From positions 1 to 22,014 of the IMG/VR virus record IMGVR_UViG_3300046009_009235: a stretch of 22,014 bases of DNA; one strand, 5' to 3'. This DNA comes from a virus. Every line of letters starts with the position of its first letter. Within the stretch, counting starts at the first letter, position 1. The notes beneath the pieces are model-generated. The model was not told the DNA's origin. It did not search any database and was given only the letters and a program-made list of their open reading frames with translations. The position numbers were made by a program, and so were the translations under genes. This document shows, piece after piece, positions 4,516 through 21,883 of this stretch.

Positions 4516-4834
4516 ATATGACATTACAATAGATCAAGGTTCGGAATACGTTCTTAATCTAACTCTATCCCAAAATGGAATAGGATTAGCTCTAGCGGGC
4601 TATGCTGTTAGGGGGCAAATCAGGCCTACTATAGCCTCGTCAACTCTATCCGCGACATTTACTGGAACTACTATTGACGCTGGCTTAGGCCAATTTAGGA
4701 TAAGTTTGTCTGCCTCAACTACAACAACAATTGTTCCAGGGCAGTATTTTTACGACGTAGAGTTGTATAATGGGAATACAATTACCAGATTAATGGAAGG
4801 AAAGGTTTTAGTTAGGCCGGAGGTAACAAGATGA
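4505..4834 (+). CDS. Small baseplate / fibre-adaptor-like protein
   Basis: 109 residues with no signal peptide or membrane helix. The pattern is that of a small beta-sandwich phage structural protein commonly encoded directly before tail fibres and resembling the N-terminal domain of BppU-type baseplate proteins: [11 protein letters not shown] at the start, a central [14 protein letters not shown] strand pair, a Ser/Thr/Ala-rich [20 protein letters not shown], and a C-terminal [16 protein letters not shown]. It probably joins the tail tip to the fibre encoded next. Its ATG overlaps the end of the PAS gene by 11 nt and its TGA overlaps the fibre ATG in an ATGA arrangement, so the three are likely translationally coupled. 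The family likeness is clear; the exact position in the virion is inferred. Confidence 0.7.
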
Positions 4835-7800
4835 GCGGTAATGTATTTTTAACTCTAGAGCCAGTTATAGCAGGGGTTGGTTCTCCCGGCATACTATTAG
4901 AGGTACAGTCAGGTGTTGGTACTGGGCCTACTGGGCCTACTGGGCCTACTGGGCCTACTGGACCTGCGGGAGCTGCCTCTACTGTGCCAGGGCCTACTGG
5001 GCCTACTGGACCTACTGGACCTGCCGGGCCTACTGGACCTGCGGGAGCTGACTCTACTGTACCAGGGCCTACTGGACCTACTGGACCTACTGGCCCCGCT
5101 GGGCCCGCTGGACCTACCGGGCCTGCTTCTACTGTCCCAGGGCCTACTGGACCTACTGGACCTACTGGGCCTGCTGGACCTACTGGACCTGCGGGAGCTG
5201 ACTCTACTGTACCAGGGCCTACTGGGCCTACCGGGCCTGCTTCTACCGTCCCAGGACCTACTGGGCCTACTGGGCCTACTGGGCCTGCAGGAGCCGATTC
5301 TACTATTCCAGGACCTACTGGCCCTACTGGCCCTACTGGGCCTACTGGGCCTGCAGGAGCCGATTCTACTGTTCCAGGACCTACTGGCCCTACTGGCCCT
5401 GCGGGGGCCGATTCTACTGTTCCAGGACCTACTGGACCTACCGGACCTACCGGACCTACCGGACCTACCGGACCTACCGGACCTACCGGAGCCGATTCTA
5501 CTGTTCCAGGACCTACCGGACCTACCGGGCCTACCGGGCCTACTGGAGCCGATTCTACTGTTCCAGGGCCTACTGGGCCTACGGGGCCTACTGGGCCTAC
5601 TGGACCTACCGGACCTACAGGGGCCACATTTACTGGTGGCGACTTATCTAGTGCGTTAGGTTTCACCGCGGGCACGCTAGCCGCGCCCGGCCTCTACGTT
5701 TCCGGCGACACCAACACCGGGCTGGCGCAGCTTTCCGGCGCGGACACGCTCGCCTTTGTGGTGGGTGGGGTGTCGAAGGTTGCGGTCACTGCGGCTAGCG
5801 TTGACATCATTCCTGCCTCGTCAAACTCTATGAATTTCTCCTCGGGGGGTGTTCGCATCGGGACTAGCCACAGCTTTGGCTGGTCAACCACGGCGGGCGG
5901 CAGCGGCGGGTCATGGGGCGCAGACTTTCGGCAGGCGACCGCCAACGTCGTAACGCTCCACACCAACAACGTCGAACGCTGGCGTGTGGACGCAGCTGGC
6001 CAGACCACCATCGCGGGCGGCACCATCACGACCAATGTGCCCGTCCTTCTGGTAACGAACACTTGGAATAGCAGCGCCGTCAACTTCGAGGGCGGTCTGC
6101 GGGTGGATATCACCGACACGGCGTCGGGGGCAGCCTCTGCCATAGCGACCTTCCGTACTGGTGGATCGACGCGCTCATACATTCACAAGTCGGGCGACTA
6201 CTTTATCGCCAACTCGAACTGGCGGATGGGGCGCGGGCCGACCGCCGAGACCACCAACCTCGTAATGGGCAACCGGTGCAACGAGCTTTCGACCGGCACC
6301 GGCGGCTACAACGTCAGCATCGGCTGGGAAGCCGGTCAGCGGATAGACGGTTCAGGTGCAAACAACCTCTACCTCGGCGTTCGCACCGGTAAAGGTACGG
6401 GCTCCGGCGCCGCCGCCACCGGCACTGCCAACACGACCGCCGGGATGCCTGCGAATGGCGACACTGTCACCATCAACGGCAAGGTCTACACTTACCAGAC
6501 CACGCTGACGAATGTGGACGGCAACGTCCTGATCGGTGCGTCGGCCAACACTGCGGCAGCCAATCTTTCTGCCGCCATCAACCTCGGTGCGACGGCTGGA
6601 ACCAACTACGCCGCTGCTATGACGCTGCATCCGACCGTCAGCGCGACCGTGTCCACCACGACCGTCACCCTGACGGCCAAGACGGCAGGGACGGCGGGTA
6701 ACTCGCTAACGCTGGCCAAGTCGGGAGCAAACATCGCCATCTCGGGCGCGGCGCTGACTGGTGGCACTGCTATCCAGAACGGCACCTACAACTCGGCCCT
6801 CGGCTCGGACGCGATGAATTATACGCGTAGCGCCAGTCAGAACATGGCCATCGGGGGCTTTGCGCTCCAAAACAACCTGAGCGGCAACGGGAACCTCGCC
6901 ATCGGGTATAGTTCGATGTTGGCGTGTCTGGGTGACAGCAACGTCGCCCTTGGTGGCTTCACCCTCTGCAACGCCGACAACGCCGCCGTCGAAAAGAACG
7001 TCGCCATCGGGCGCTCAGCCATGCAGGGCACTCTCGGCTCTTCCACTGGGTACGAGAACGTCGCCGTCGGCTTTGAGGCTTTGAAGGCCTTCACCACCGG
7101 CATCCGCAACACGATGATCGGCACGAACGCAGGCGATGTAACCACGACCGGCAGCCGGAACATCTGCATCGGCTATAACACCGACGCCCCCAGCGCGACG
7201 TCGAACGACACGCTGAACATCGGCAATCTGATCAAGGGCGATCTGTCGGGGGCCATCATCACGACCTGCGGCGCGGTCCTGCCCGACGCGGACGGCACGC
7301 GCAACATCGGCAGCGGCGCGCTGCGGTACAACACGATCTACGCCACGACGGGAGCCATCAACACCTCTGACGAGCGCCACAAGGTCATCCGCGAAGGTGG
7401 TGGCCTCAATGCTGCTGAGCTTAGGGCGTGGGGCAATGTCCGCGCCATCATCTATCAGGACGCCCACTCGGTCGCCGAGTGGGGCGCAAACGCCGCTCGC
7501 TTCCATGCCGGTTACGGCTGGGATGCCATTAAGCGAGCGTTTGCCGCCGAGGGGCTCGACGCTGCTCGCTACGGCCTGTGGTGCGCCGACCCTGTTCTGG
7601 AGCCGCGGACTATTGTCGAGACCCGCCAGCGGCCTGTGCTTGATGAAGATGGACAGCCGGTGTTCGAGCTCCGTCCGTTGATCCTGGCAGACGGCACGCC
7701 AGCCATGATGGACGAGCGTTCGGTGGTTATCGACATGGTTCCGACCGAGGTTCCGGTCATGGAGGAGTTCGAGGATACCTGTCTGGAGGTGAAGGTCATC

Positions 7801-8229
7801 GACGGCCAGACGGTGGCGGTCGTTCGTAGCCGAACGGCCCGGCGCGAAGTGACCGACACGATCCCCGTTCTGGATGCCGAGGGCCAACCCGTCATGGCCT
7901 CCAACCCGGTGCTCGGGGAGGACGGCGCCCCTGTTCTCGATGAGAACGGAGCCCTGCTGATGACGACCTCTCCGATGGAGATCGCCATCCCCCGGGTGGA
8001 GACGGTCGAGATGCCTGTCGAACGCGAAGTCTTCACTTCCGTTCCGCGCATGCAGCAAGTCGCCTTGATGGAGGACTACGAGCACGAGGTGACCGAACTG
8101 GTCCCGACCGGCGAGGTCAAGGGTGCCCTGCGCTACTCGGAGTGTGCGGTGATGGAGGCTGCTTGGTTGCGGCATCAACTCACCTCCCTAACAGCTAGAG
8201 TAGTAGCGCTAGAAAATGGTGGGGCTTAA
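4831..8229 (+). CDS. Collagen-like tail fibre with C-terminal peptidase S74 chaperone
   Basis: 1,132 residues; strong Shine-Dalgarno CCGGAGG 5' of the ATG. Order of parts: short N-terminal anchor (1-30); collagen-like Gly-Pro-Thr/Ala repeats (about 31-264) interrupted ten times by an ST(V/I)PGP element; a Gly/Ala-rich shaft; a head region with repeated N-x-AIG / N-x-A(V/L)G turns (about 665-790) as in trimeric adhesin heads; then from Ser846 an intramolecular chaperone of the endosialidase/peptidase S74 type, with the SDERHK cleavage motif, a [24 protein letters not shown]-type region and a late [19 protein letters not shown] helix. In this family the chaperone drives trimer folding and cuts itself off before the serine. 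The fibre should be the receptor-binding adhesin. Codons from about 5660 to 8185 are very GC-rich, unlike both ends of the gene, so the distal part looks transferred. The last 12 or so codons return to backbone style. Confidence 0.85.
4924..5622 (+). repeat. Collagen-like 9-bp tandem repeat tract (GPT/GPA)
   Basis: About 700 bp built from 9-nt units of the form GGNCCTACN (Gly-Pro-Thr) with GPA variants, broken by ten longer GADSTVPGP-like spacers. Some stretches are identical at DNA level: GGACCTACC occurs six times in a row at 5434-5487, while 4924-4959 uses GGGCCTACT. This suggests recent slippage or unequal recombination. At protein level it should form a trimeric collagen-like stalk whose length can vary between isolates. 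Confidence 0.95.
5660..8185 (+). other. High-GC, CTAG-free module inside the fibre gene (probable horizontal acquisition)
   Basis: Composition changes abruptly inside one open reading frame. Upstream and downstream codons are AT-leaning, whereas this block uses G/C in most third positions (for example 7261-7320 is almost all G and C). I found no CTAG between 5868 and 8194, although the backbone has one about every 90 bp in a segment I counted (eleven in 15781-16740). The reading frame is intact across both borders. The right border lies within the last 15 or so codons, where the text switches from ggcatcaac to ctaacagctagagtagtag. Interpretation: a receptor-binding module swapped in from a high-GC genome. 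Confidence 0.8.
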
Positions 8230-9703: not shown

Positions 9704-9946
9704 TCACCAAGATAAGTATTCTTCTAGTTGATTATACCCACCAATATAGTGAGTAACACCATCTTTTAGTACCTGTATCTGAGGCACAGTCTTAGCAGAA
9801 GGAAAGAGCTCCCTGAACTCTTCCAAAGTTATTCCTTCGCCTATCTTTGTGTATACATAACTTAAACCAGTCTTAGACAATAGTGCTACTGCTTTAGTAC
9901 AATATGGGCAATTATCTTTTCCAAATACATTAAACAGCACAGCCAT
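9704..9946 (-). CDS. Glutaredoxin / NrdH-like redoxin
   Basis: About 80 residues from the ATG at 9946; an in-frame GTG at 9955 adds three residues. Thioredoxin-fold glutaredoxin with active site CPYC (Cys13 and Cys16 from the ATG), cis-Pro loop TVPQI (residues 53-57) and the IGGYNQLEEYL glutathione-site/C-terminal helix. It should reduce the C-terminal cysteine pair of the ribonucleotide reductase encoded immediately upstream, whose last codons it overlaps. It is the last gene of the minus-strand block and ends just before the shared terminator. The GGAG just before the ATG is closer than usual (3 nt), so translation may depend on coupling to the reductase. Confidence 0.92.
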   Translation of the reverse strand: MAVLFNVFGKDNCPYCTKAVALLSKTGLSYVYTKIGEGITLEEFRELFPSAKTVPQIQVLKDGVTHYIGGYNQLEEYLSW

Positions 9947-12743
9947 CTGCTCCACAAGCTACTTGATCATTAAGGTTAGTATGGTCTTCAACCTCCAACA
10001 CTTGACTCAAGTCAATATTGTGCAGGAATTTACTAAGTCTGTTGAACTCTTCTTCCGTACAGTCTTCAAATGGAGCCTGTACGTAGCTTCCTCCATCATA
10101 TGGAAGAACAGAAATACCAGTATATATGCTTCTATTGCGCCACATCCATTGACCAACTGGAACCCATTCATCTTCTTTGACCGAAATAGTGCAAGAAACA
10201 TTGTGGAAATTTTTACCGTATCTATGCCCAGGTTGTACCCACTCTTCGTTAAACTCAGCAACACGCTCTAGCGTGTCTATTGGGTTTTCTGTGCGTAAAA
10301 TGGCTCCAACTGGTGCTCTTTGGGGAAAGGACATAACTGCCTCTAAGTGAGGTTTAAAGGCACAGTCTTCAATTAGCTCGGGGAAGTTAGTAATCATGTA
10401 TTCATACATAGCCTCATTCTTCCCAACGCGCATTCTGCGAATGTAGAAATCATTATGCCAGGCATGAACTCCACTAGAAGAACCAACTACTAGAGAGCTA
10501 GTACCGCTTGGTTTAATAGTGGTAGTACGCGCAGCCTCGTTAATGCCAATCAGGGCAGCAACACGAGAGTTCTCCGTCACTACTACTTCGGCGGCTTCAG
10601 TAAGGTCTAGCCGTAATACTGTTCCAGAACCAATACCTGTCTGTCCAACACCGATAAGAGCTTCCTTCTCAGTGATATCGGCCCACTCAGGCCTCAAGTA
10701 GTGGAAATCAGTATAGCCAGCTTGCAATGTTCCTAGGAACGACGCGGCCTTAGCACGCTCGTTGAGGTCGCTTTGATCTTCAACGTCAGAGACATTGATC
10801 TCAGTAAGATTACATTGGTACGTTAGAACATTGCTAAACACGCCCATACCTCTTAGAGGCTCTGTGAAGCAAAATGTATCGTGTAGCCCAGGTAACTTAG
10901 TTACTGATCGTACGTTTTGGTTTTTGCCCTTTGCCACCCCCTCTGTGTTATTATTACATAACACTCTATGACAGGGTATTTCGTCAGTTTTAGTAATTTG
11001 AATATACCACATGTCTTCACTACGAGTGCCTTTGTTGGTAACTGTGCCTTTCTTGCTCATTAAATTAACAGAACTTCTAATACCAAACCTAGACAGTACC
11101 AACTGTAGGCCACGTGCTCTATCTTCTCTAGAAAGATATAGTCTCAGACCTTTTCCAGCGTTAGATCCATCAGCGTCTATCCAACCAGCCATAAATTTAA
11201 GAAAAGAATCTTTAGTATACCTAGTTAAGTTAAATATACTATCCGTATCATTTCTTAAACTAATTAATTCAGTTGGCGATAGCTCAGTCAATACTCTTAT
11301 TGTAGGAACATTATATCCTTCAGGAGTTCGCTCATTACCTCGCGCACCCTCAACGGGGCATTTCATTTTTTCACCGAATAAATCAATAACTACTTTATCT
11401 CTATGAACACATCCGTCTCCTAGGGCAAATCCCATAGTATATGCGTTTTCCATAACTTTTCCGGACTCATTAGTGTCTGTAATTTTATATGGTTCAGCAT
11501 GTACCGGATAATTGCCTAGTAAAAGGTCCTTTGCTTCTACTTTACGATATGTTTTTTCAAATCTATTTCTAATAGAGAATTTATGATCTTCAGTACAATC
11601 TAAATAAGACCCATCGCTCATTTGCACTCTTACAAGAGGTACTTGTGATCTAGTGTTTTGGATTAATACTTTAGACCAAACTTCCCCGTTAAATATCTCT
11701 ACTTCTTGTCCTAGTAGAGATTGTATTTCAAATATACCTTCCTTGGTAATTAACTTAGTATCCCCAGAAACACACATCTGGCAGTCATTGAGACTAATTT
11801 CAGCACATGGATTAGTCCCCATGTCGCGATCGTTAGTCCAGAAAATGCCAGGCTCTCCAGCCCCAGACAGTTGAATCTTCTTCCAAACCGCAAGAAACTG
11901 GTCAATCGTAGTGGTATCTCGTAGAAGCACTACTGAGTTATTAGCGCGACCACGCTGCGGATTGGCGATATACCAATCTCCGGACTTAGCATGGAGCATG
12001 TCCATATCGTCATAGTCAAACAGAGAAATAAGGGCTGCACGGCGAATACCCCCACTAAGGACGGCGTCAGCAATATAGCACAAAATATCATGTACTTCAA
12101 TAGGAGTTAGTTTACGACCAACTGCCCCATTAAGAACGCTACGAACGTGCTCAATACAAAGGCGAAGCGGCTCGGGCCCCGGAGCCTTACCTCCACTAGT
12201 AATTAGTCTGGCACCCTTGCGCCTAATGTCACTATAGTCAAATAATGGGTCGCTTTTTCCCTGGAAGTACGCTTTAAAGAGCACTTTAATAGCGTCAGCC
12301 CAGCCTTCAATACTATCACCTACTAGGAAGCGTCGTGTGCGCGCCTTGACTCCCTGAACAATTGGAAGCTGCGACACATGGTGCCTCTGAACACTGTATC
12401 CTAGCCCAGTTCCACCGAGCAGAAGGAACATGGCCTCGCTAAATACAGCGGGGTCTCTAGCAGCCATATAAGCGCAGTTAAAAATACGATTGTTGGCTAG
12501 CTCAATAGGAACACCACCAAATTGCAGCGAGCGCATTGAAGGAAGAACCTTTTTAGGCTCAACAAACCGCTCGTAAACAAAAGCAATCTCAGTTTCTAGA
12601 TCGGGGTACTTTCTAGTATGCATTGCTTTGTTACGATCGCAGATTTCTTTCCAAGTCTCTCTGCGGCCTAACTCAGGTAAGTATTTGGCATATTTGTTAA
12701 AAATAGTGATATCAGAGAGAATCTCAGACGCTACGTTTCTCAT
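9930..12743 (-). CDS. nrdJ: Adenosylcobalamin-dependent ribonucleoside-triphosphate reductase (class II), with intein
   Basis: 937 residues as encoded; removal of the 320-residue intein leaves about 617, shorter than the roughly 740-residue Lactobacillus enzyme but of the same monomeric type. It reduces ribonucleoside triphosphates to deoxynucleotides by a thiyl radical generated with coenzyme B12. Visible features: FNCAYM (N-side redox cysteine), LLGGTGLGYSVQRHHVSQLP, active-site NPCAEISL (Asn311, thiyl Cys313, Glu315), KPSGTSSLVVGSSSGVHAWH, and a C-terminal CGADGC (Cys930, Cys935) that shuttles electrons as in the Lactobacillus enzyme. The start ATG has GGAG upstream and overlaps the flap-endonuclease gene by 20 nt. 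Glutaredoxin follows with overlap. No separate radical-generating subunit is needed or seen. Activity requires splicing, because the intein splits the active-site region. Confidence 0.92.
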   Translation of the reverse strand: MRNVASEILSDITIFNKYAKYLPELGRRETWKEICDRNKAMHTRKYPDLETEIAFVYERFVEPKKVLPSMRSLQFGGVPIELANNRIFNCAYMAARDPAVFSEAMFLLLGGTGLGYSVQRHHVSQLPIVQGVKARTRRFLVGDSIEGWADAIKVLFKAYFQGKSDPLFDYSDIRRKGARLITSGGKAPGPEPLRLCIEHVRSVLNGAVGRKLTPIEVHDILCYIADAVLSGGIRRAALISLFDYDDMDMLHAKSGDWYIANPQRGRANNSVVLLRDTTTIDQFLAVWKKIQLSGAGEPGIFWTNDRDMGTNPCAEISLNDCQMCVSGDTKLITKEGIFEIQSLLGQEVEIFNGEVWSKVLIQNTRSQVPLVRVQMSDGSYLDCTEDHKFSIRNRFEKTYRKVEAKDLLLGNYPVHAEPYKITDTNESGKVMENAYTMGFALGDGCVHRDKVVIDLFGEKMKCPVEGARGNERTPEGYNVPTIRVLTELSPTELISLRNDTDSIFNLTRYTKDSFLKFMAGWIDADGSNAGKGLRLYLSREDRARGLQLVLSRFGIRSSVNLMSKKGTVTNKGTRSEDMWYIQITKTDEIPCHRVLCNNNTEGVAKGKNQNVRSVTKLPGLHDTFCFTEPLRGMGVFSNVLTYQCNLTEINVSDVEDQSDLNERAKAASFLGTLQAGYTDFHYLRPEWADITEKEALIGVGQTGIGSGTVLRLDLTEAAEVVVTENSRVAALIGINEAARTTTIKPSGTSSLVVGSSSGVHAWHNDFYIRRMRVGKNEAMYEYMITNFPELIEDCAFKPHLEAVMSFPQRAPVGAILRTENPIDTLERVAEFNEEWVQPGHRYGKNFHNVSCTISVKEDEWVPVGQWMWRNRSIYTGISVLPYDGGSYVQAPFEDCTEEEFNRLSKFLHNIDLSQVLEVEDHTNLNDQVACGADGCAV
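10815..11774 (-). mobile_element. Intein with LAGLIDADG endonuclease in NrdJ
   Basis: 320 residues (324-643 of the precursor). It starts CVSGDTKLIT (block A, Cys1), has block B SDGSYLDCTEDHKF with Thr384 and His387, two LAGLIDADG helices (TMGFALGDG near 436-444 and FMAGWIDADGS at 517-527), and block F/G ending FCFTEPLRGMGVFSNVLTYQ. The next residue is Cys, the +1 nucleophile. Splicing restores NDCQM-CNLTEI, ten residues after the thiyl cysteine, a known intein site in reductases. Odd point: the last two residues are Tyr-Gln instead of His-Asn (codons TAC CAA before TGT). The intein looks AT-richer than the flanking extein. Confidence 0.9.
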
Positions 12744-13548
12744 TTAGTCTCCACTCTAGGTCTAATACATTAGACGCGCCTATGGCTTCTTCGCAATAGG
12801 TTATTAAATCCATTAATTCATAATTAAGCATAAGACGTTCCTTATGCTCATTTAAGCTCTGTATATATTTGTACTTGCTGTCAATGGGGCAAGCCTCATA
12901 AATATCAAAGGCATCACCATAGGTCTCAATAAGAGACACAGCCTTTTTAGGCCCCACACCGGGAATACCTGGAATGTTATCTCCGGTATCCCCTGTTAAA
13001 CACTTGTATGAGATATAGTTGTCTTGGGATACATCATAAGGCCAAGTATCTATGGTGATTTCTTTACGCGTAACATAAGAAAAGCGGCTAACTCCGTCAC
13101 GAACTAGCAAGTCCCAGTCCCGGTCAGAACTGATAAGCCAAATCTGTTCCATATTGTAACGCTTTCTATAGCGAACAATATAAGCGGCTAAGTCATCGGC
13201 CTCAACACCCTTATAGCGGTACACTTCGTAGCGCTGAGCCAGTAAGTCTAGAGTGGCCTCATACTCATTAAAGAAAGCCTCAAAAGCTTCTTTCTCTTCT
13301 TTAGTTTGGTCCTCAAAAGTTCTGTTACGCTTATACTCTGGAAACAAATCACGGCGGAAACTGCTGCTGCCCTGGTCGGCAACGATTATAACTCGACCAG
13401 CCTTATAAGACTTAGCCAGAGATTGTACCGTTTGTAAGTACTTCTCCTTGAAGTATAAATCACCTGAATGTTTCCAGCGGAACGCAAGATTGAGGGCGTC
13501 CACTATCATTATGTGGGAATCTATCCTTGTGTCTTCAAAATTAGCCAA
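12724..13548 (-). CDS. 5'-3' exonuclease / flap endonuclease (T5 D15-like)
   Basis: 274 residues, close in sequence pattern and length to the T5 D15 flap endonuclease. Metal-binding residues line up: Asp17 in IVDALN, Asp58 in VADQGSSSFR, the PEYKRNR arch residues, Glu116/Asp118/Asp119 in GVEADDLAAYI, Asp142 and Asp144 in ISSDRDWD, Asp187 and Asp190 in TGDTGDN, followed by the helix-hairpin-helix IPGIPGVGPKKA. It removes 5' flaps and RNA primers. The start is a TTG preceded by GAGGG eight bases upstream; the later ATG at 13509 lacks a well-placed Shine-Dalgarno and would leave only a few residues before the first catalytic Asp, as seen by comparison with D15. It overlaps the upstream resolvase-like gene by 8 nt and the nrdJ start by 20 nt. 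Confidence 0.92.
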   Translation of the reverse strand: MANFEDTRIDSHIMIVDALNLAFRWKHSGDLYFKEKYLQTVQSLAKSYKAGRVIIVADQGSSSFRRDLFPEYKRNRTFEDQTKEEKEAFEAFFNEYEATLDLLAQRYEVYRYKGVEADDLAAYIVRYRKRYNMEQIWLISSDRDWDLLVRDGVSRFSYVTRKEITIDTWPYDVSQDNYISYKCLTGDTGDNIPGIPGVGPKKAVSLIETYGDAFDIYEACPIDSKYKYIQSLNEHKERLMLNYELMDLITYCEEAIGASNVLDLEWRLNEKRSV

Positions 13549-13978
13549 AATCTACACCCTCTTCCTTAAGCCAATCCTCAGCTAACATAGTATAGCAGTT
13601 TAGCCAGGAAATGTAAAGATATTTTTTAAGCTTTTCAGGTTTTAATTCAGTGCATACAAATACCTTTGACCTATTGTATTTGAAAAATAGGAGAGGTTCC
13701 TGCTTAGCGTTAAATGCCTGATTCTTAATCTTTAACCACCATCGTACCAGATTATTAGTCTTTTCCTGGGTAAACAACTTGTCAGTTAGAGGGGACTCTT
13801 CGTAATTCTTAACTTCTATACAAAAGCGATTCTTCATGTTAGGTACGTACAAATCGCCCTTCAAATACTCTAGTGCCCCGGACAGCGGGACTCGCTCAAA
13901 CTGCAAACCTGTTGCAGACCTAAGCAAGTCCCTAACCGTGTACTCTCCTCTAGCTCCTTTAGCTCTTGAATCTACCAT
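13541..13978 (-). CDS. PD-(D/E)XK nuclease, Holliday-junction-resolvase-like
   Basis: 145 residues. The layout matches archaeal Hjc-like and phage junction-resolving enzymes: KGARGEYTVRDLL (Glu12), SGALEYLKGDLYV (Asp42), FCIEVKNYE (Glu55-Val-Lys57), then a basic C-terminal half. Such enzymes cut branched DNA during recombination or packaging. It lies between SbcC and the flap endonuclease, in the position that a T5 D14-type gene takes in T5-like phages (from memory). Start ATG with AAGGTA upstream, overlapping the SbcC stop region. The nuclease fold is well supported; the junction-resolving role is inferred from motif spacing and context. Confidence 0.8.
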   Translation of the reverse strand: MVDSRAKGARGEYTVRDLLRSATGLQFERVPLSGALEYLKGDLYVPNMKNRFCIEVKNYEESPLTDKLFTQEKTNNLVRWWLKIKNQAFNAKQEPLLFFKYNRSKVFVCTELKPEKLKKYLYISWLNCYTMLAEDWLKEEGVDFG

Positions 13979-13979
13979 A

Positions 13980-15782
13980 TTACCTTTCTAACCTACTTAC
14001 TCTATCTTCGGACTTAATCACTTCTAGCTTATCTAGCAGAGGGTGAGTCCACCCGTGAGATACTATAAATGTATTTAAGTCTTCTTTTAGAAGCACCTCT
14101 ACTAGGCGCTCTTTGCCTGCATCATCAAGCACACTGATTACTTCGTCTAGAAATAACACATTAAGCTTATTCTTAGACATAGTGCTCATTAGCTTACGTA
14201 TAGCGAGTAGAGTAGCAGTATTGACTCGTCCAAGTTCCCCTGTAGATAGCGCTAGAATGTCTACGGGTTTAGAGAAGTCTGTTATTTCTACATTTAATTT
14301 ATCATTAGTAACCACGAACTCAATAGTAAATCTACCATCAGAAAGTTCAGCTAAATACTCATTTGCTTCATCTTCTAGGGTTTTTACCATGTTTTCTATT
14401 TTGTGTGCGATAAGCCCGTTAGTGCTAAAGGACTTCTTTAGTAGTTCTAAAATTGATAGATTGGATACTTCTTTGTCTAGCAGCGTGGCTGTCTCAACTA
14501 ATTCAGCCTGAAACTTTTCGCCCTGTTCTTGAACAACTTGTACTCTAGTATTATGCTTTATTCGGCGGTTGTTCTCTTTGGTTAACTCCTCTACCTGAGC
14601 CTTAGCAGCTTCTAGGCGCAGACGAGTATTAGTTAGGCTTAGTTCTAAGTCTATTTTATCCAGTAACGAGTCGGGGAGGCTTTTATCAATTGAGCGGTAA
14701 AGTTCCTCCCATTGACGTTGAGTTTGTACTTTCTTATTGTACTGCTCATTGTTTAGCTTTATAGTAGCAACCTTAACCTCTAGCTCTGCCATGTCGGACT
14801 TAAGCTGTTCAAGTCTGCGAGTATCGTCAGCAATTAGCCCAGTCTTAAACTCTGGAGCTATGGGTTGCTCACAGGTAGGACATTGATCGCCTAGCTTTGC
14901 TAGCCTGTTAATACTGTTATTTAGAGACGAACTCTCCTGCTTTATAGCTCCGATAGCTGCTTGTTCCTCGTCATACGAAATTAATTCACTAGCCTCAATC
15001 GCAGATACTGCTTGCATATCAATAGAATTCAACGCAGATTTGTTATCGTTGTTGATCGAAATTTTTCGATTTCTTGTTGAGATATTTGCAAGTTCTTCTG
15101 AAAGTTTCTGAATAGCTATCTCGTCTTCGGTCGTCGAAATCTCTATTTTCACAGGGTCTAGTACTTGGGTAGTCTCCAATTTATTTGAGTCCAACCATTT
15201 TTGGATGGTCGATAGCTTAGACTCAACCTCAGCAACTCTAATGGAAGCGTCTTTAGCAGCCTCTTTGAACACATCAAACTTAGCTACGTATTCTTCTAGG
15301 TGTAGTAGGTCGATTAGAAACTTCTTACGATTTGTATCTGTAGCCGTAAGGAACTGAAGACTTGTATTAGTACTCTGGTAGAATATCTGAGAGAACGTCT
15401 TATAGTCCCAGCCTAAAAGATCGGAAAGATACTTGAATGTGTTAGTAGCCGTGTGACTAGATACATCTACTCCGCCCTCAAGCAACTTCACTTTTACTGT
15501 TGACTTTCTACTTATTTCTAGTACGTACTCCGTAGCACCCACTGAAAACTCTAGTAGTATCTCGTAGCTGTCTTTGGTAGTATGTCTATTTGGTATATCT
15601 GCCTTCTTGATACCTTTAGAGTTTTTGTTAAAGAGAGCTTCTTCAATTATAAGAGGTATAGAGGACTTTCCAGACCCATTTACCCCAATAATCTGAGTAA
15701 TGGGAGAGGCATCAAGTTGTATGAAGTTATTCTTGCCGTAGCTAAAGCAATCACTCCATTCCACTCTTTTGAGCGTAATCAT
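13980..15782 (-). CDS. SbcC/Rad50-like recombination exonuclease ATPase (T4 gp46 / T5 D13 family)
   Basis: 600 residues, the compact phage form of SbcC/Rad50. Walker A GVNGSGKS (33-40); two long coiled-coil arms (about 165-295 and 310-440) around a zinc hook DQCPTCEQ (Cys301, Cys304); ABC signature ALSTGELGRV (511-520); Walker B NVLFLDE (541-547); D-loop VLDDAG (551-556); switch His576 in VSHGWTH. It binds DNA ends and, with the SbcD/Mre11 partner encoded just upstream, resects them for recombination-dependent replication. It overlaps that gene by 32 nt, which fits stoichiometric co-translation. All ATPase motifs are intact. Confidence 0.95.
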   Translation of the reverse strand: MITLKRVEWSDCFSYGKNNFIQLDASPITQIIGVNGSGKSSIPLIIEEALFNKNSKGIKKADIPNRHTTKDSYEILLEFSVGATEYVLEISRKSTVKVKLLEGGVDVSSHTATNTFKYLSDLLGWDYKTFSQIFYQSTNTSLQFLTATDTNRKKFLIDLLHLEEYVAKFDVFKEAAKDASIRVAEVESKLSTIQKWLDSNKLETTQVLDPVKIEISTTEDEIAIQKLSEELANISTRNRKISINNDNKSALNSIDMQAVSAIEASELISYDEEQAAIGAIKQESSSLNNSINRLAKLGDQCPTCEQPIAPEFKTGLIADDTRRLEQLKSDMAELEVKVATIKLNNEQYNKKVQTQRQWEELYRSIDKSLPDSLLDKIDLELSLTNTRLRLEAAKAQVEELTKENNRRIKHNTRVQVVQEQGEKFQAELVETATLLDKEVSNLSILELLKKSFSTNGLIAHKIENMVKTLEDEANEYLAELSDGRFTIEFVVTNDKLNVEITDFSKPVDILALSTGELGRVNTATLLAIRKLMSTMSKNKLNVLFLDEVISVLDDAGKERLVEVLLKEDLNTFIVSHGWTHPLLDKLEVIKSEDRVSRLER

Positions 15783-16704
15783 TATAAACTCCTATAATTG
15801 CATCTATTTTTTCAGGCGGTATTTCTACTATATAGGTTAAGTACTCCACCAACTCTTCTAGAATAGTCATATTCTTATCAAGAATTAGACTAGCTTCTGA
15901 GTTACGTTTGACTAGCTTTTTATCTAAAAGCTCCGACTCTCTAACTTGGGCTAATTCTACTGCATCGCCTTCAATTTCATAAATAGTATGATGAAACTCT
16001 GTGGGCAGCATATCTCGTTGATCAGATACTGTTTTTCTGATAAGTTGAGGTAAGTTAAAGTCATACCATTTCCAAGTATTATCATTCGTCTCTAGTATAA
16101 TGTAGCCAGTATCCACCTCGTTTCTATGAAAAGAGGTAGTCATTGGACTACCGGGGTACACTATATTACGTTGTGTATTAGAGTGTGAGTGCAAGTCCCC
16201 GGCAAATACAACTGGAAATCTATCGAACAAGGCCAAATCTACTTCTGGCTTAACGTGCGGAGGAATCTCTCCTCTAACGTGTGTAAATAGAATTTTCTCT
16301 GGAAAGAAGTCTAGAGTCTTGTGCTTATGTAGCTCGCAGTATGGAAGAATTGAAAACTCGTCCATAATAACAGATTCATCCACCACAGTAACCAAAGAGT
16401 TAAATCTGCTAGTGGTTTCTTTTAGATTACTAAAGAAGGTTTTACCTTTCTTTGTAGCTTCATGGTTGCCATCAAAAATAAGGCATTTAACCGGAATAGC
16501 GGACACTAGATCGAAATATACTACTAGCTCTTCAATAGTGGGTACACGGTCAAATATATCCCCACCTAGGACTAGTAGGTCTACATTAGCGCAGGCATCA
16601 ACAAGTTGTTCAATAAACATCTTGTATCTATTTTGAGCCCATACTAGAGGCACGTTTTTCTGTCTTAAATTTATATGTATATCAGCAGTAAATAGTATAC
16701 GCAA
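15751..16704 (-). CDS. SbcD/Mre11-like nuclease (T4 gp47 / T5 D12 family)
   Basis: 317 residues. Calcineurin-type metallophosphoesterase with all phosphoesterase motifs: ADIH (Asp8, His10), LGGDIFDR (Asp49), FDGNHE (Asn80, His81), LFTHVRG (His142) and AGDLHSH (His172, His174), then the Mre11 capping region YPGSPMTTSFHR and DTGYIILE. It is the nuclease partner of the SbcC-like ATPase. The start codon is TTG, chosen because GAGGAG (16710-16715) sits five bases before it. The gene follows an intrinsic terminator placed after ssb, so its expression depends on read-through or on a promoter I could not identify. Confidence 0.94.
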   Translation of the reverse strand: MRILFTADIHINLRQKNVPLVWAQNRYKMFIEQLVDACANVDLLVLGGDIFDRVPTIEELVVYFDLVSAIPVKCLIFDGNHEATKKGKTFFSNLKETTSRFNSLVTVVDESVIMDEFSILPYCELHKHKTLDFFPEKILFTHVRGEIPPHVKPEVDLALFDRFPVVFAGDLHSHSNTQRNIVYPGSPMTTSFHRNEVDTGYIILETNDNTWKWYDFNLPQLIRKTVSDQRDMLPTEFHHTIYEIEGDAVELAQVRESELLDKKLVKRNSEASLILDKNMTILEELVEYLTYIVEIPPEKIDAIIGVYNDYAQKSGME

Positions 16705-16709
16705 TGTTA

Positions 16710-16715
16710 CTCCTC
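16710..16715 (-). promoter_or_regulatory. Strong ribosome binding site for the TTG-started SbcD gene
   Basis: GAGGAG with a five-base spacer (TAACA) before the TTG at 16704. It fixes the start of a gene that has no nearby ATG at the right place. Confidence 0.8.
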
Positions 16716-16742
16716 AAAAAATAATGGGGGCTTGCGCCCCCA
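16714..16742 (-). terminator. Intrinsic terminator downstream of ssb
   Basis: Read on the minus strand: TGGGGGC, loop GCAA, GCCCCCA, then TTATTTTTTGA. The 7-bp stem is nearly all G-C and is followed by a T-rich tract. It starts 6 nt beyond the ssb stop codon and ends at the SbcD ribosome binding site. It should end or reduce transcription after ssb, separating it from the recombination genes. Confidence 0.85.
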
Positions 16743-16747
16743 CCACC

Positions 16748-17380
16748 TTACTTAATGTTGAATTCCTCGTTGATTTCCTCATCGACGTTCTCAGCATCGT
16801 CTCCGCCACGACGAATCTTGTCTAGCAGATCCTTCTGCATATCTGGAGTAGGCTTAGGTAGAACCTCGTCCATAGACTTAATTCCAGCGATCAGAGCCTT
16901 TTCTTCTTCAGTAAGCTCTCGGGGCTTGCACTTAAGAACTTGCAGCGTGTACTCTACGTTGATAGGGCGCGGGCCAGTCTTAACCTTCTTGAAGCAGACG
17001 TCCCAGCCCGTGGTCGGATCAGTGGGATCACCTAGGTCCTCGGCTGCGATCATAATTTGCTCAAGCAGCTTTTTCTTAAGGTTAATTACTACAAGCTTAT
17101 CTCCGTCAATGCACTGCATCGCGTAGGCCCAACCACACTTAAGGTCGGGGTAGTACTCCTTAACCCAATCTTTTTCCTGATTGGTAAACTTTTCGGACTC
17201 TCTATCAAACGCAAGGCATTCGAAAGGAATATCCTTGTTGTTCTCGCCCTTAACCCAGTACACGTAGCGAGCTAGAATATCTCCAACTAGACGTACCTTG
17301 TTGTCTCCTTCTTTGTAGGCGTACTGAGCCACCTTACCCTTAATAGCGCCGCCCTTTGAATTAGCGAATGCAATAGCCAT
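16748..17380 (-). CDS. ssb: Single-stranded DNA-binding protein
   Basis: 210 residues. An OB-fold-like core (about 25-160) contains VRLVGDILARYVYWVKG, DIPFECLAFDR, KDWVKEYYPDLKCGWAYAMQ and NVEYTLQVLKCK, and is followed by a linker and a strongly acidic tail (GGDDAENVDEEINEEFNIK). That core-plus-acidic-tail design is shared by phage ssDNA-binding proteins such as T7 gp2.5 and T4 gp32, whose tails recruit replication partners; here the extreme C-terminus is IK rather than an aromatic residue. It should coat single strands during replication and recombination. A GAGGAG overlaps the stop codon of the upstream gene. A consensus promoter about 390 bp upstream and a terminator just downstream suggest a separate, abundant transcript. 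Confidence 0.75.
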   Translation of the reverse strand: MAIAFANSKGGAIKGKVAQYAYKEGDNKVRLVGDILARYVYWVKGENNKDIPFECLAFDRESEKFTNQEKDWVKEYYPDLKCGWAYAMQCIDGDKLVVINLKKKLLEQIMIAAEDLGDPTDPTTGWDVCFKKVKTGPRPINVEYTLQVLKCKPRELTEEEKALIAGIKSMDEVLPKPTPDMQKDLLDKIRRGGDDAENVDEEINEEFNIK

Positions 17381-17382
17381 AT

Positions 17383-17769
17383 TTAGTTCTCCTCGTATAG
17401 GAATAGAATTCTATTCCCGTCTATTTTTAAAAGCCTGTTTTTTGCGATTGTATCTAACGATACGGGACATTTTCTAATATCTAATGAAGTGTCCCCGGTC
17501 ATAATATACTCCGCGTAACTTCTGAGACCTGCCAGCATTATATACTGAGCGGCTTCTTGCAGGGAGCAACTGTGCCAATTCATTAGGAGCCCTTTAGGGT
17601 TAAGCATAAAGCCATCCCCACTAAAGTCTTTATCTTTATATAGTCTTCTGAGATCGAACTTGTTTCTAATCTTGCGACCGTAAACAAGCATATCAAAAAT
17701 TGCTACAATTCTTGCGACCTTACGATCTGACGCCTGTAATATTTTATTCCAATCGTACAGAATAGTCAT
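17383..17769 (-). CDS. Hypothetical protein, unrecognised
   Basis: 128 residues from the ATG at 17769. An in-frame TTG at 17796 also exists, but it is the first base triplet of a perfect -35 element and has no Shine-Dalgarno. I do not recognise the family. The N-terminal half is basic (ASDRKVARIVAIF, GRKIRNKFDLRRLYKDK), the middle has a predicted helix (SLQEAAQYIMLAGLRSYAEYIM) and the C-terminus is short and acidic. No membrane helix or catalytic motif is visible. It is soluble and possibly nucleic-acid binding by charge only. The start is unsettled: the ATG overlaps the -10 box, so a transcript from that promoter would begin after it and translation would then need the internal ATG at 17691, which has no clear Shine-Dalgarno. 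It lies between thyX and ssb, 2 nt from the latter. Confidence 0.6.
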   Translation of the reverse strand: MTILYDWNKILQASDRKVARIVAIFDMLVYGRKIRNKFDLRRLYKDKDFSGDGFMLNPKGLLMNWHSCSLQEAAQYIMLAGLRSYAEYIMTGDTSLDIRKCPVSLDTIAKNRLLKIDGNRILFLYEEN

Positions 17770-17796
17770 TATAGCAAAGTTTTTCCAAATTGTCAA
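17768..17796 (-). promoter_or_regulatory. Consensus sigma70 promoter
   Basis: On the minus strand: TTGACA (17796-17791), exactly 17 bp, TATAAT (17773-17768). Both hexamers are perfect matches and the spacer is optimal. The -35 box overlaps the thyX stop codon and the -10 box overlaps the ATG of the following gene. Transcription should begin near 17758-17763 and run through the unknown gene into ssb, up to the terminator at 16714-16742. Confidence 0.85.
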
Positions 17797-18539
17797 GAAT
17801 TATTTTTTACACGCTCAAGAAGTAGCGGATACGCTCCATCTTCTTTTAGAATTTCGATAATTTTTTGCGCGTAGTCCTTATCTTGTTCTAGTTCTTCAAC
17901 GGCGTCGCAAATATCTCTGAAGTGAGACCTAAGAATAAGCCATGCCTTTTCCGCAATCTTCATATGCTCTTTTTGAGTGCCGTTGCCCATTCTTAGTCGG
18001 CAGTAGTGTATCCAAGAGCGAAGGGTGCCATGCATATACATGGTTGTGCTGGTCATGCCCTCGGGCAGAACCGCACGGGCTTGCTCTTTGGCGATACCCA
18101 TTCCAAGGGCTGCTGTGTATGCATTTTGTGTAACTCGTTCCACAGCTGCCTGAACCATATCGAACCCCTCAATAACGTGAGTATCAGTGGTTTGTAGGCT
18201 GTTTTGGCGGTTTTTAGTATCCTGAAGTCTAGCCTCTCTACGTACGGGCTTACCTTCCGCAATAGCATAACGTTGACTAAACTCCTGAAACCTGAAGCTA
18301 GGGTGCCTAATGATTTGGCGACCTATGTCTCTAGTAGTAACAACTTCCATTGTAACGGAAACCATTTCTAGAGGACTCCAATGTCCTTCACGAATAAGAG
18401 TCTTTAAAAGTTTCTTAGCCGTAGTATGATTTTTCTGGTTGCCTGGGTTACTAACCCTAGCCGTATATGCAATCAATTCAGCAGGGGAACTAACCCCTGG
18501 AACGAATGATTGCGTCATTGATATTAGTTCTACACTCAA
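17793..18539 (-). CDS. thyX: Flavin-dependent thymidylate synthase
   Basis: 248 residues. ThyX converts dUMP to dTMP using FAD, NADPH and methylene-tetrahydrofolate. The diagnostic motif is present in variant form at residues 78-91, RHPSFRFQEFSQRY, against the usual RHRxxSxxxxSxRY: the third residue is Pro and the sixth is Arg. The EGHWSPLE segment (His53, Ser55, Glu58), the C-terminal LRSWIHYCRLRMGNGTQKEH dUMP-site region and the ARAVLPEGM element are typical. The start is TTG, supported by GGAGG nine bases upstream, and it overlaps the MazG-like stop as TTGA. It forms part of the nucleotide-supply set with NrdJ, glutaredoxin and MazG. Confidence 0.95.
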   Translation of the reverse strand: MSVELISMTQSFVPGVSSPAELIAYTARVSNPGNQKNHTTAKKLLKTLIREGHWSPLEMVSVTMEVVTTRDIGRQIIRHPSFRFQEFSQRYAIAEGKPVRREARLQDTKNRQNSLQTTDTHVIEGFDMVQAAVERVTQNAYTAALGMGIAKEQARAVLPEGMTSTTMYMHGTLRSWIHYCRLRMGNGTQKEHMKIAEKAWLILRSHFRDICDAVEELEQDKDYAQKIIEILKEDGAYPLLLERVKNNS

Positions 18540-18946
18540 AACTGTTTTCCTCCAGCTAATCGTCTATTTTCAGGCCTGTGGTCCGCTCGGTTAGCGTTAT
18601 ATTCTAGCTTATCTACAATGGCTCCAGCTAGGTCAAGATCATATGCCCCACAAAAATCCGCTATACGAATAACGGCATCTGCTAGCTCTACCTCAACACC
18701 CGGCCTGTCGGGTAATTTATCGTCCATAAGATTTTTGCGAACAGCTTCCATAGCTTCAGATATTTCAGATACCATAAGCATAAGTAGCTCGCCCTTATTC
18801 CTATTTAACCTAGCCCCTGTGTTAATATCATGCCACCATCCACCTTCTACAGCAGCGTCGTGACACGTATCTACTAGAATGTCTATACCTTCCATGATGG
18901 CTAGAGTATCCCGCGAGTTAGTATTTAACTGTTCAATCAAATCCAT
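18536..18946 (-). CDS. MazG-like nucleotide pyrophosphohydrolase
   Basis: 136 residues, all-alpha. The metal-binding signature of MazG/dUTPase-type pyrophosphohydrolases is visible: Glu61 and Glu64 in VSEISEAMEAVRK, then Glu87 and Asp90 in VEVELADAVIRIADF. The GWWHDINTG segment before it is also common in this group of phage proteins. It should hydrolyse (d)NTPs to monophosphates and pyrophosphate, either cleaning the pool or supplying dUMP for ThyX, with which it overlaps by 4 nt. Start ATG with GGAG five bases upstream; overlaps the helicase end by 10 nt. The substrate cannot be told from sequence. Confidence 0.85.
   Translation of the reverse strand: MDLIEQLNTNSRDTLAIMEGIDILVDTCHDAAVEGGWWHDINTGARLNRNKGELLMLMVSEISEAMEAVRKNLMDDKLPDRPGVEVELADAVIRIADFCGAYDLDLAGAIVDKLEYNANRADHRPENRRLAGGKQF
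18549..18553 (-). promoter_or_regulatory. Ribosome binding site for the TTG-started thyX
   Basis: GGAGG nine bases before the TTG at 18539, within the 3' end of the MazG-like gene. It supports initiation at TTG rather than at the ATG seven codons later. Confidence 0.65.
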
Positions 18947-21243
18947 ATTGTCTCCATTTTATAGCCTTTTCTCATATAGTGCCCCATTCTAGCCATGGCC
19001 TGCCTTTCAGCAGTGTGTCCAGTTAGATTTATATCTACTATCACAGGATTTTTCTTATCTTTTAGTTCACGTACTACACGACCTATAAGCTGCTCTAGTA
19101 GGGGCTCGTTGTTAACAGGAGTGCCCAATACTAAACAACTAAAGGGACTGTGTGATATACCCTCAGAGAAAATACTTTGAATACCTCCAAGCATATTGTA
19201 CTTTGTACCTACTTGAGAGATTAACAAGTCTCTCTCGTCTTTAACCTTACCAGTTACAGCAACTCCGTTAGGTCCAACTAACTTAACCACGTTCTCGATA
19301 AATTCCACTCTATCCGCTAGAGTTAGAACATTATGCCCTTGTACCGCGTACTTAGCTGAAATCATAGCCACTAAGTGCACATACTCTGGGTTAGACATTA
19401 GTTTGTTAACTCTAATAGCCCATGGACCAGACTGCTGAAATTGTATTTTAGTTTTATAAATGTGAACCACCGGAGTCATCCGGTTTTCTTCTGGAGGCAC
19501 ATATATCTTGTCCCCGAAGTAGTCTCTAAATACTACGTGCTTTCCATCTTTACGTCTAAGAGTCCCACTGAGCCCTATCTTGTACCTAGCGTAGCTTTTA
19601 TCAATAATAGTACTGAAGGTAGGGCTGCTCGTGTGGTGCATTTCGTCCAGAAGGATAGTACCAAATTCCCTAGATATTTCAGGTATCTTCCTAGATAGCG
19701 TCTGAGTATTACCCACTGTCACAGGCTTACTAATATCAAAACTACCACTACCGATAATGCCAGGTTTAAACCCAAAGACTTTTTCACATTCTTTTACCCA
19801 TTGATTTCTCAGTGGGACTGTGTGAGTTACTACCAAGGTCTTTTGCCCGAGCTTGCCAGCAATAGCCAAAGCAGTAAACGTGTTGTGAGTAACTATATAA
19901 CTATCGGTTAAATATAGTTTGTCTTCTGAATCTATCTCTATACAAAAGCAATCATCATTCTCTATCTTTTCTATACTCTTTATAGGTATTTTACCTAATG
20001 AGTCCCACTTGCCTTCTTTAATTCTAGCTTTTTTTCTACCTACATAAAACAACTGGGTTTTTATACTCCAAGGTATTCTGGAAACTCTGCCTCTATAAGA
20101 TACTCTTCCTAATCTACGCTCGTTATTGTGGGTATATTGAGTAGTTCTGCTAGATATTGTGATAGAGCCACCAATACTATAAACCAATTCAGCAAATGCA
20201 TCCATTAGTTTTTTTGATGTAGAGCTAAACTCTATTTTTCCACTGATCTCTATATTGCCATCTGAGTCTAATAGCCCCTGTAGTAATTGTAGTTTGTTTT
20301 CTAAGGAATCAAACATATATTCTTCTGGTATAAATTTATCATGAGAACCAAGACCCATTAAACCTAAGCGCCTTAATTCATCTGTTATTAAATTTTTACC
20401 CTGCCTTGAGTCCGTTATCCTATAGTCGTATTTACTAGCATGGGTTATTGAGCATAGTTCTGGGAGTAACTCTTGCACTCTATTGATAATTTCTTCATCA
20501 GCAGATGAAACCATTACGGAGCCAGAAGTAATACCTCCATCACCTAATAAAATACCTAGTACATATGGGTGTATTATATGAGTTTTATGTGTGTCTGATA
20601 TTGCTGAGGTTAAAGGTAGATATATCCTTTTCTCTTGAAGTAACCTATTTTCTTGTATAATTTGCTTTGTACTAAGAACTTCCATATTCTTTGATTTATT
20701 TTTGTATACGGACCAAAGATGGTCCTCACAACAATGAACTACTCTATCATCAAGCAAAGTAATTTCATATATCGGTTTATCTGTATGATTATACTTATTT
20801 AAAACGGTAGAAGTTTTATTGTTCGGAGTTATAACTAAATCGCCCGGAGCTATTTCATACATAGTCTTCCAACCCCCGGGTACCCTAATTAAAGAGTACC
20901 CAGGCTGTGCTTTGCCCCACGAAGGGTTAGCGTTAATCATGGCATTGCCTGAAATATCTTCGTAGACTTCTTTTTGGGACGCACGTAACTCATAACCAAA
21001 CTTGGGAAAGTCTGTCGGCGCCAGGACTCTTTTGTCAACTATCTCGTAGCTTGGAGGTATTAGGTCTATCCTGCCAATAGGGATGGACATAAGCCCAGGC
21101 CTAATGACAGAATAGGTTCTAATAATCTCTGGGGGCAGTTCTTCCGTATAAGCAGGTATTTTATAGGTAAGAAGGTGTTCTAACTCTCTTTGATAAGAGT
21201 CAGTAACTTCTAGAAATATCCTATTTGATAGTACCGCTTTCAT
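18937..21243 (-). CDS. SF2 DNA helicase (UvsW / T5 D10-like) with intein
   Basis: 768 residues as encoded, about 425 after removal of a 343-residue intein. The ATG at 21243 is preferred because AAGGAG lies four bases upstream; an in-frame TTG at 21258 would overlap that site. After splicing the P-loop reads NPSWGKTFTALAIA (motif I). Further SF2 motifs: VVTHTVPLRNQW (Ia), TVGNTQTLSRK (Ib), LLDEMHH (II), LSGTLRRKDG (III), NVLTLADRVEF (IV), LVLGTPVNNE (V) and EQLIGRVVR (VI). UvsW-type helicases drive branch migration and rescue stalled forks. The N-terminal 100 residues (YELRASQKEVY) are the usual pre-helicase and Q-motif region. The gene overlaps phoH upstream by 23 nt and the MazG-like gene downstream by 10 nt. 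Confidence 0.92.
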   Translation of the reverse strand: MKAVLSNRIFLEVTDSYQRELEHLLTYKIPAYTEELPPEIIRTYSVIRPGLMSIPIGRIDLIPPSYEIVDKRVLAPTDFPKFGYELRASQKEVYEDISGNAMINANPSWGKAQPGYSLIRVPGGWKTMYEIAPGDLVITPNNKTSTVLNKYNHTDKPIYEITLLDDRVVHCCEDHLWSVYKNKSKNMEVLSTKQIIQENRLLQEKRIYLPLTSAISDTHKTHIIHPYVLGILLGDGGITSGSVMVSSADEEIINRVQELLPELCSITHASKYDYRITDSRQGKNLITDELRRLGLMGLGSHDKFIPEEYMFDSLENKLQLLQGLLDSDGNIEISGKIEFSSTSKKLMDAFAELVYSIGGSITISSRTTQYTHNNERRLGRVSYRGRVSRIPWSIKTQLFYVGRKKARIKEGKWDSLGKIPIKSIEKIENDDCFCIEIDSEDKLYLTDSYIVTHNTFTALAIAGKLGQKTLVVTHTVPLRNQWVKECEKVFGFKPGIIGSGSFDISKPVTVGNTQTLSRKIPEISREFGTILLDEMHHTSSPTFSTIIDKSYARYKIGLSGTLRRKDGKHVVFRDYFGDKIYVPPEENRMTPVVHIYKTKIQFQQSGPWAIRVNKLMSNPEYVHLVAMISAKYAVQGHNVLTLADRVEFIENVVKLVGPNGVAVTGKVKDERDLLISQVGTKYNMLGGIQSIFSEGISHSPFSCLVLGTPVNNEPLLEQLIGRVVRELKDKKNPVIVDINLTGHTAERQAMARMGHYMRKGYKMETIWI
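19882..20910 (-). mobile_element. Intein with LAGLIDADG endonuclease in the helicase P-loop, class 3-like
   Basis: 343 residues (112-454 counted from the ATG at 21243). It splits the Walker A lysine from its threonine (GK / TFTALA). It begins with Ala (AQPGYSLIRVPGG), not Cys or Ser. Block B ends CCEDHLWSVY, with His175 and Trp177 at position B:12; block F has CFCIEI with Cys434 at F:4; block G ends VTHN with Thr452 at G:5 and Asn454 last, followed by Thr+1. Trp-Cys-Thr plus a non-nucleophilic first residue is the known signature of class 3 inteins. Two LAGLIDADG helices, VLGILLGDGG and LQGLLDSDGN, indicate a full homing endonuclease. Confidence 0.88.
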
Positions 21244-21883
21244 ACTGCTCCTTGGCAATTAAGTAATTCTTAACTAGTCCGCTTCTGACAATATCCTGAA
21301 TACCGAATTCAATCAAATCAAACTCGGGCATCGATTTAAGGATATCTAGAAACTTCTTCATTCCGTTCTTAGCTAGATCGGCTTGATTGAAGTCTCCACA
21401 AAAGATAATCTTACAATTATTACCAACTCTAGTAATGATTGAGTCTAGTTCATGGAAGCTCAAGTTCTGAATTTCATCGACAATAATAACTGCGTCAGAA
21501 ATAGTTGTACCTCTAATGAATGAGGTGGTCTTGAATTCTACGTAGCCTTTTTGTTTAAGCTGTAGGTATGCTGTACCACAATCGAATAGCTCTGTAAATA
21601 CTCCAGCGTATGGTGCCTCGTAAACTTCGGCTTTTTCCTTCTCTCCTCCAGGAAGGAACCCCATATCTCTTGTAGGTACTACACTTCGTACAATTACTAA
21701 TTTACTATATTCTTTCTTGAATATATCATCCATAGCTATATAGCAGGCTAGAAACGTCTTACCTGAACCGGCTGTGCCGTATAGCATTAGATTATTGGAA
21801 GAGTCCCACACCTTTTTTTGGTTGGCTGTTAACGGCTCAACTTCGATTAAATTAAGGTGTTCTCTTTCGATTTTACGCTTCAT
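21221..21883 (-). CDS. phoH: PhoH-like P-loop ATPase
   Basis: 220 residues, the usual length for a single-domain phage PhoH. LTANQKKVWDSSNNLMLYG leads into Walker A GTAGSGKT (36-43); IVRSVVPTRDMGFLPGGEKEK is the conserved PhoH segment; Walker B is IIVDEIQNL (Asp136-Glu137), CGDFNQAD resembles a sensor motif, and RSGLVKNYLIA lies near the C-terminus. Many phages carry phoH; proposed roles include RNA/DNA helicase-like activity, but the true function in infection is unsettled. Start ATG with AAGGA upstream; it overlaps the preceding open frame as ATGA and runs 23 nt into the helicase gene. Confidence 0.93.
   Translation of the reverse strand: MKRKIEREHLNLIEVEPLTANQKKVWDSSNNLMLYGTAGSGKTFLACYIAMDDIFKKEYSKLVIVRSVVPTRDMGFLPGGEKEKAEVYEAPYAGVFTELFDCGTAYLQLKQKGYVEFKTTSFIRGTTISDAVIIVDEIQNLSFHELDSIITRVGNNCKIIFCGDFNQADLAKNGMKKFLDILKSMPEFDLIEFGIQDIVRSGLVKNYLIAKEQYESGTIK
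21248..21253 (-). promoter_or_regulatory. Ribosome binding site deciding the helicase start
   Basis: AAGGAG, four bases before the ATG at 21243, inside the 3' end of phoH. The upstream in-frame TTG at 21258 has no such site. Confidence 0.75.

Follow-up and report, generated by a model that had tools for sequence, protein, structure and literature searches.

Can an intein whose last two residues are Tyr-Gln, and not the His-Asn of textbooks, still splice, and how unusual is such an end? This question is raised by the nrdJ gene of a 22,014-base viral record (hereafter the window, i.e., the whole stretch of DNA that was analyzed). Its product is an adenosylcobalamin-dependent (B12-dependent) ribonucleoside-triphosphate reductase of class II and monomeric type, and the precursor matches TIGR02505 RTPR (E 9e-60), phrog_367 ribonucleotide reductase (E 3e-109), and the L. 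leichmannii RTPR structure PDB 1l1l (E 4e-33). The relevant features are the following, with splice junctions and insertion sites marked by a slash throughout:

9930-12743, minus strand: nrdJ precursor, 937 aa, with one intein (open reading frame, profile and structure matches)
11775-12743, minus strand: N-extein, last residues NPCAEISLNDCQM (open reading frame, comparison with insert-free relatives)
9930-10814, minus strand: C-extein CNLTEINVSDVE..., including the stop codon (same evidence)
10812-10814, minus strand: Cys+1, first residue of the C-extein, corresponding to the redox-active Cys419 in L. leichmannii RTPR (1l1l alignment, by numbering)
10815-11774, minus strand: class 1 intein with LAGLIDADG endonuclease, 320 aa, from Cys1 to Tyr319-Gln320 (reading frame, domain matches)
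11772-11774, minus strand: Cys1, the first-step nucleophile, codon TGT (Cys in 80/80 relatives)
11583-11594, minus strand: block B TEDH with Thr61 and His64 (His invariant in a 54-row alignment)
11409-11435, minus strand: first LAGLIDADG motif MGFALGDGC with Asp120 (Gly120, Asp125, and Gly126 in precursor numbering invariant in the 54 rows)
11163-11192, minus strand: second LAGLIDADG motif MAGWIDADGS with Asp200/Asp202 (Pfam LAGLIDADG_3)
10869-10871, minus strand: Cys302, block F position F:4 (Cys in 80/80 relatives)
10860-10862, minus strand: Glu305, position F:4+3 (Glu in 79/80 relatives, Asp in the remaining one)
10848-10850, minus strand: Gly309, where the block F His (F:13) usually sits (viral relatives: His in 37/60, Gly in 13/60)
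10815-10820, minus strand: Tyr319-Gln320 (TAC CAA), the C-terminal residues of the intein (LTYQ in 10/23 viral relatives at the same site)

Compared to about 79 viral reductase relatives that lack the insert, e.g., NPCCEIALNPFQF/CNLTEIN as opposed to NPCAEISLNDCQM/CNLTEIN in the nrdJ of the window, the insertion is exact and in frame, occupies a conserved extein site, and leaves no scar on removal. Cys+1 is conserved in these insert-free reductases, and the Cys of the NPC motif in the N-extein aligns with Cys408 of 1l1l (again by numbering). In L. leichmannii RTPR, Cys419 and Cys119 form the redox pair while Cys408 carries the thiyl radical. According to this alignment, the splicing nucleophile Cys+1 is itself a catalytic residue of the host reductase, a point that the initial annotation had overlooked. 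The enzyme would consequently need exact splicing, failed splicing would inactivate it, and the unspliced precursor should be inactive.

Within the intein, the minus-strand frame is open through all 320 codons, and TIGR01445 intein_Nterm matches above its cut-off. Cys at positions 1 and +1, the TxxH of block B, and Gln320 as a cyclizable C-terminal residue are those of a class 1 intein, and the two helices with catalytic Asp (Asp120 in GDG, Asp200/202 in DADG) are those of a LAGLIDADG endonuclease. An AlphaFold2 model with a mean pLDDT of 92.6 confidently predicts an intein-like fold, for which Foldseek returned the TliVMA intein (7qsu, E 3e-15) as best match and also the folds of I-DmoI and PI-SceI; searching the PDB with the intein sequence returned no match, so that this likeness came through the model alone. 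Class 3 inteins have no nucleophile at position 1 and instead combine Trp at B:12, Cys at F:4, and Thr+1. Of these features the nrdJ intein has only Cys F:4, and with Cys1 present, Phe at B:12, and Cys+1 a class 3 mechanism is ruled out.

The C-terminal junction reads LTYQ/CNLTEIN, with codons TAC CAA TGT at 10820-10812. The initial annotation had given this reading, which we confirmed from the codons, and its assignment of an NrdJ intein to 10815-11774 is borne out in class and boundaries by the open reading frame, the profile matches, and the insert-free relatives. It had further described all other blocks as looking intact; this is true of Cys1, TEDH, both LAGLIDADG motifs, and Cys+1 but not of block F, where F:13 is Gly. 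The penultimate His, usual though not obligatory in class 1, is replaced by Tyr319. With Gly at F:13 and Tyr at the penultimate position, the intein is left without any His from F:4 to the splice junction. The loss of both auxiliary His of the C-terminal step would, judged from the residues, count against splicing.

To see how such ends are distributed, we applied peptide patterns from the N-terminal part to 2.9 million viral contigs and obtained 80 loci (contigs and phages are designated by L numbers below); since these patterns exclude the tail of the intein, the retrieval did not select for it. Together with phage records and after removal of near-copies, the viral set comprised 60 non-redundant inteins, all with Cys1 and Cys F:4. 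Their terminal residue is Gln in 48 and Asn in 12, the penultimate residue is His in only two, and none ends in His-Asn. At the /CNL site occupied by the nrdJ intein, 22 of 23 viral members (two of which are inserted one codon further on) end in Gln: Tyr-Gln in ten, Lys-Gln in eight, His-Gln in two, and Phe-Gln and Gly-Gln in one each, next to a single Lys-Asn. At the SNL/CxEI site of class I NrdA, i.e., before what we take from known NrdA anatomy to be the radical cysteine, ends are mostly Gly-Gln or Gly-Asn; the mini-intein of P1201, which sits at this site of nrdE and ends in Gly-Asn, belongs to a gene reported to be active. Two further members in NrdB precede Ser+1 (IH/SETY; L163 and L170) and have a terminal Gln. 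Among cellular relatives, Tyr-Gln ends are found in Lokiarchaeota and one Clostridiales genome, while many cyanobacterial relatives end in Gly-Asn. The pattern used for the cellular scan contained LTYQC, which biases Tyr-Gln frequencies among its matches, and these relatives consequently serve as examples and not as rates.

The LTYQ end is common to relatives that are just 31-48% identical to the nrdJ intein, e.g., L002, which shares HDTFCFTEPxRGMGVFxNxLTYQ/C with it, and chance is excluded as the source of the shared motif. In a tree of 80 sequences, built with the last three residues omitted, the lineage falls into two groups by insertion site; the CNL clade has a support of 100, and the NrdB pair lies within the other group. 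The nearest relatives of the nrdJ intein all end in LTYQ, and terminal Gln is conserved within its clade. Across the tree, the terminal residue changed between Gln and Asn at least nine times (two of them inside the CNL clade) and the His state of F:13 at least 19 times. Of the 80 sequences, 78 have Gly, Tyr, Lys, Ser, Phe, or Ala at the penultimate position and the other two have His, and a search for His-Asn ends among all 80 found none. In 23 of them, including the nrdJ intein and the NrdA intein of phage ICP1, the stretch from F:4 to the splice junction is free of His. The nrdJ intein clusters with the reductase inteins and shares their Cys F:4, Glu at F:4+3, and non-His penultimate residue. 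The departure from His-Asn noted in the initial annotation thus holds with respect to inteins in general but not within the reductase lineage, where the supposed oddity of a terminal Gln without a preceding His turned out to be normal; the comparison with Gln-ending reductase inteins that it had proposed shows the nrdJ intein to be typical.

The survey also revealed variation in where this lineage inserts. In reductases with twin Cys, its members are found one codon apart, i.e., at ELC/CLVETFP (L002, L116, L216, L218, and L225) or EL/CCLVETFP (L219, L124, and L125). Both insertions yield the identical extein, empty ELCCLVETFP alleles are common, and the shift by one codon occurred at least twice on the tree. 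The 1318-aa reductase reading frame of L002 contains two inteins, one before the equivalent of Cys119 (LNN/C, ending in TGN) and one beside the equivalent of Cys419; counting the NrdA site, all three catalytic cysteines are therefore represented among the insertion sites of phage reductase inteins. In L116, an apparent further insert follows TSVKPSG in the same reductase gene from about position 4377 onwards.

A second intein of the window offers a control:

19882-20910, minus strand: intein in the helicase reading frame 18937-21258 (at GK/T of the Walker A motif of a ResIII/UvsW-type helicase)

It is unrelated to the nrdJ intein and carries the class 3 (WCT) features Ala1, HLW with Trp B:12, Cys F:4, and Thr+1. 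It ends in VTHN, and all of its relatives that reach the end have His-Asn; their insertion point follows GK in a variety of P-loop proteins, and Glu at F:4+3 is absent from the helicase inteins. Unrelated inteins at the NPC Cys of cyanobacterial reductases likewise end in His-Asn (ITHN/CGEI). The Gln end is consequently a property of the lineage and not of phages or reductases as such. We had also considered that the insertion site itself might have caused the loss of His-Asn; at the radical-Cys site this is ruled out by unrelated His-Asn inteins in cyanobacteria and in viral contigs (e.g., L261 and L282). Elsewhere in the window, the plus strand encodes a protein of 1132 aa that contains long collagen-like GPTGPT repeats (4831-8229; Pfam Collagen), of which a long antisense reading frame at 4812-5675 is a by-product. 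The minus strand at 12724-21883 carries a phage DNA-metabolism block comprising a 5'-3' exonuclease, a PDDEXK nuclease, an SbcC/SbcD-like pair, ThyX, the helicase, and PhoH.

The initial annotation had stated that some reductase inteins have a C-terminal Gln, and the literature supports this (PMC4031507, PMC3556154). Gln is an accepted C-terminal variant, and the reductase (RIR1) intein of Chilo iridescent virus (CIV/IIV-6) splices with its native Gln, even better than with Asn (PMC4031507). Going by published descriptions, this intein resembles the nrdJ intein in host protein and terminal Gln and, if the Gly-Gln end given for it is right, in lacking a penultimate His, but it comes from an insect virus and has Gly instead of Tyr at the penultimate position (PMC3556154, PMC4031507). 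The same Gly-Gln end is recorded for phage phiCbK (PMC3556154), yet that paper gives N584 as the last residue of the phiCbK intein, and the phiCbK relative Caulobacter phage Karma (L088) reads Gly-Asn. The archaeal PhoPol-II and PabPol-II inteins likewise carry Gln as last residue where Asn is usual (PMC8229266, PMC4031507) but reside in another host protein, and in PhoPol-II a block F His, which is Gly in the nrdJ intein, has been proposed to activate this Gln (PMC8229266). Splicing without a His at G:6 has been shown for class 1 inteins of mycobacteriophages such as that of Bethlehem gp51 RDF; one with a penultimate Gly splices to completion, and an introduced His slows it (PMC5050341). These inteins differ from the nrdJ intein in host protein and in their Gly at G:6, and the study treats the C-terminal step as Asn cyclization without mentioning Gln (PMC5050341). 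Closer at hand, alignment and tree place the NrdA inteins of ICP1, phiTE, Staphylococcus St1.CM, and Aeromonas PhAER-4 in the same lineage; they share Cys1, Cys F:4, Glu at F:4+3, and LAGLIDADG motifs and end in Gly-Gln, but are only 27-33% identical and sit in class I reductases before the Cys of SNL/CxEI and not at the Cys419 equivalent. Inteins of cyanobacteria, Lokiarchaeota, and Clostridiales at the /CNL site share insertion site and clade with the nrdJ intein (31-46% identity) but have cellular hosts; those of Lokiarchaeota and Clostridiales end in Tyr-Gln like the nrdJ intein, whereas most cyanobacterial ones end in Gly-Asn.

Taken together, the nrdJ intein is very probably a class 1 intein that is active and mobile and belongs to a lineage specific to reductases, whose members normally end in Gln and normally have a penultimate residue other than His. 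By analogy to the characterized inteins, it most likely splices through Gln cyclization and is an ordinary member of a little-described group. In the proposed course of events, Cys1 would form the N-terminal thioester aided by Thr61 and His64, and attack by Cys+1 would give rise to a branched intermediate. Gln320 instead of Asn would then cyclize to a glutarimide and thereby release the intein, a step that would need neither the block G nor the block F His and would probably be assisted by Cys302 and Glu305, our candidate activators of a Gln that lacks both. An S-to-N shift would finally join the exteins to NDCQM-CNLTEIN and regenerate the redox Cys419. The LAGLIDADG domain, in turn, would carry the gene by homing into nrdJ alleles that lack the intein; such empty alleles are common among related phages. 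A bolder version of the third step, which we regard as unlikely, extends it to the entire lineage: Cys F:4 and Glu at F:4+3 would replace both auxiliary His and drive Gln cyclization, possibly through an acyl-enzyme formed at Cys F:4 in the manner of class 3 inteins, and the choice between Gln and Asn as last residue would be nearly neutral and switch freely.

The nrdJ intein might instead be slow or conditional, with a rate-limiting C-terminal step that lets precursor accumulate and delays or regulates reductase activity during infection. Splicing of the Pab and Mma Pol II inteins is indeed slower with Gln (PMC4031507), how much precursor builds up with a phage intein depends on its penultimate residue (PMC5050341), and the F:13 His is lost as well. 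We nevertheless consider this rather improbable, given that for the CIV reductase intein Gln is superior to Asn (PMC4031507) and that Gln has been kept across very diverged relatives, which suggests an optimized and not a crippled end.

That Tyr-Gln marks an intein in decay that has lost splicing seems very unlikely to us. Two textbook residues are absent, and reductase genes with decaying inteins have been described in Campylobacter phages (PMC3653736), but the reading frame is uninterrupted, the remaining catalytic residues are all present, LTYQ is conserved at 31-48% identity, and Cys+1 is essential to the reductase. A sequencing or assembly error that hides a true His-Asn end is barely conceivable, even though the window is a fragment from a metagenome and the one contig with an identical sequence (L001) ends short of the junction and thus neither confirms nor contradicts the codon. 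Several base changes would be needed to turn TAC CAA into His-Asn, and Tyr-Gln is found in many independent contigs and genomes. It is this recurrence of Gln and Tyr-Gln ends in distant relatives that makes both a dying intein and an error at the junction unlikely.

The textbook His-Asn rules serve both for the detection of inteins and for calls on their activity, and here they would mislabel a widespread lineage of reductase inteins as odd or dead. Conversely, the 23 of 80 members without a block F or block G His, including the NrdA intein of ICP1, are natural test cases for how the cyclization of Gln or Asn is activated.
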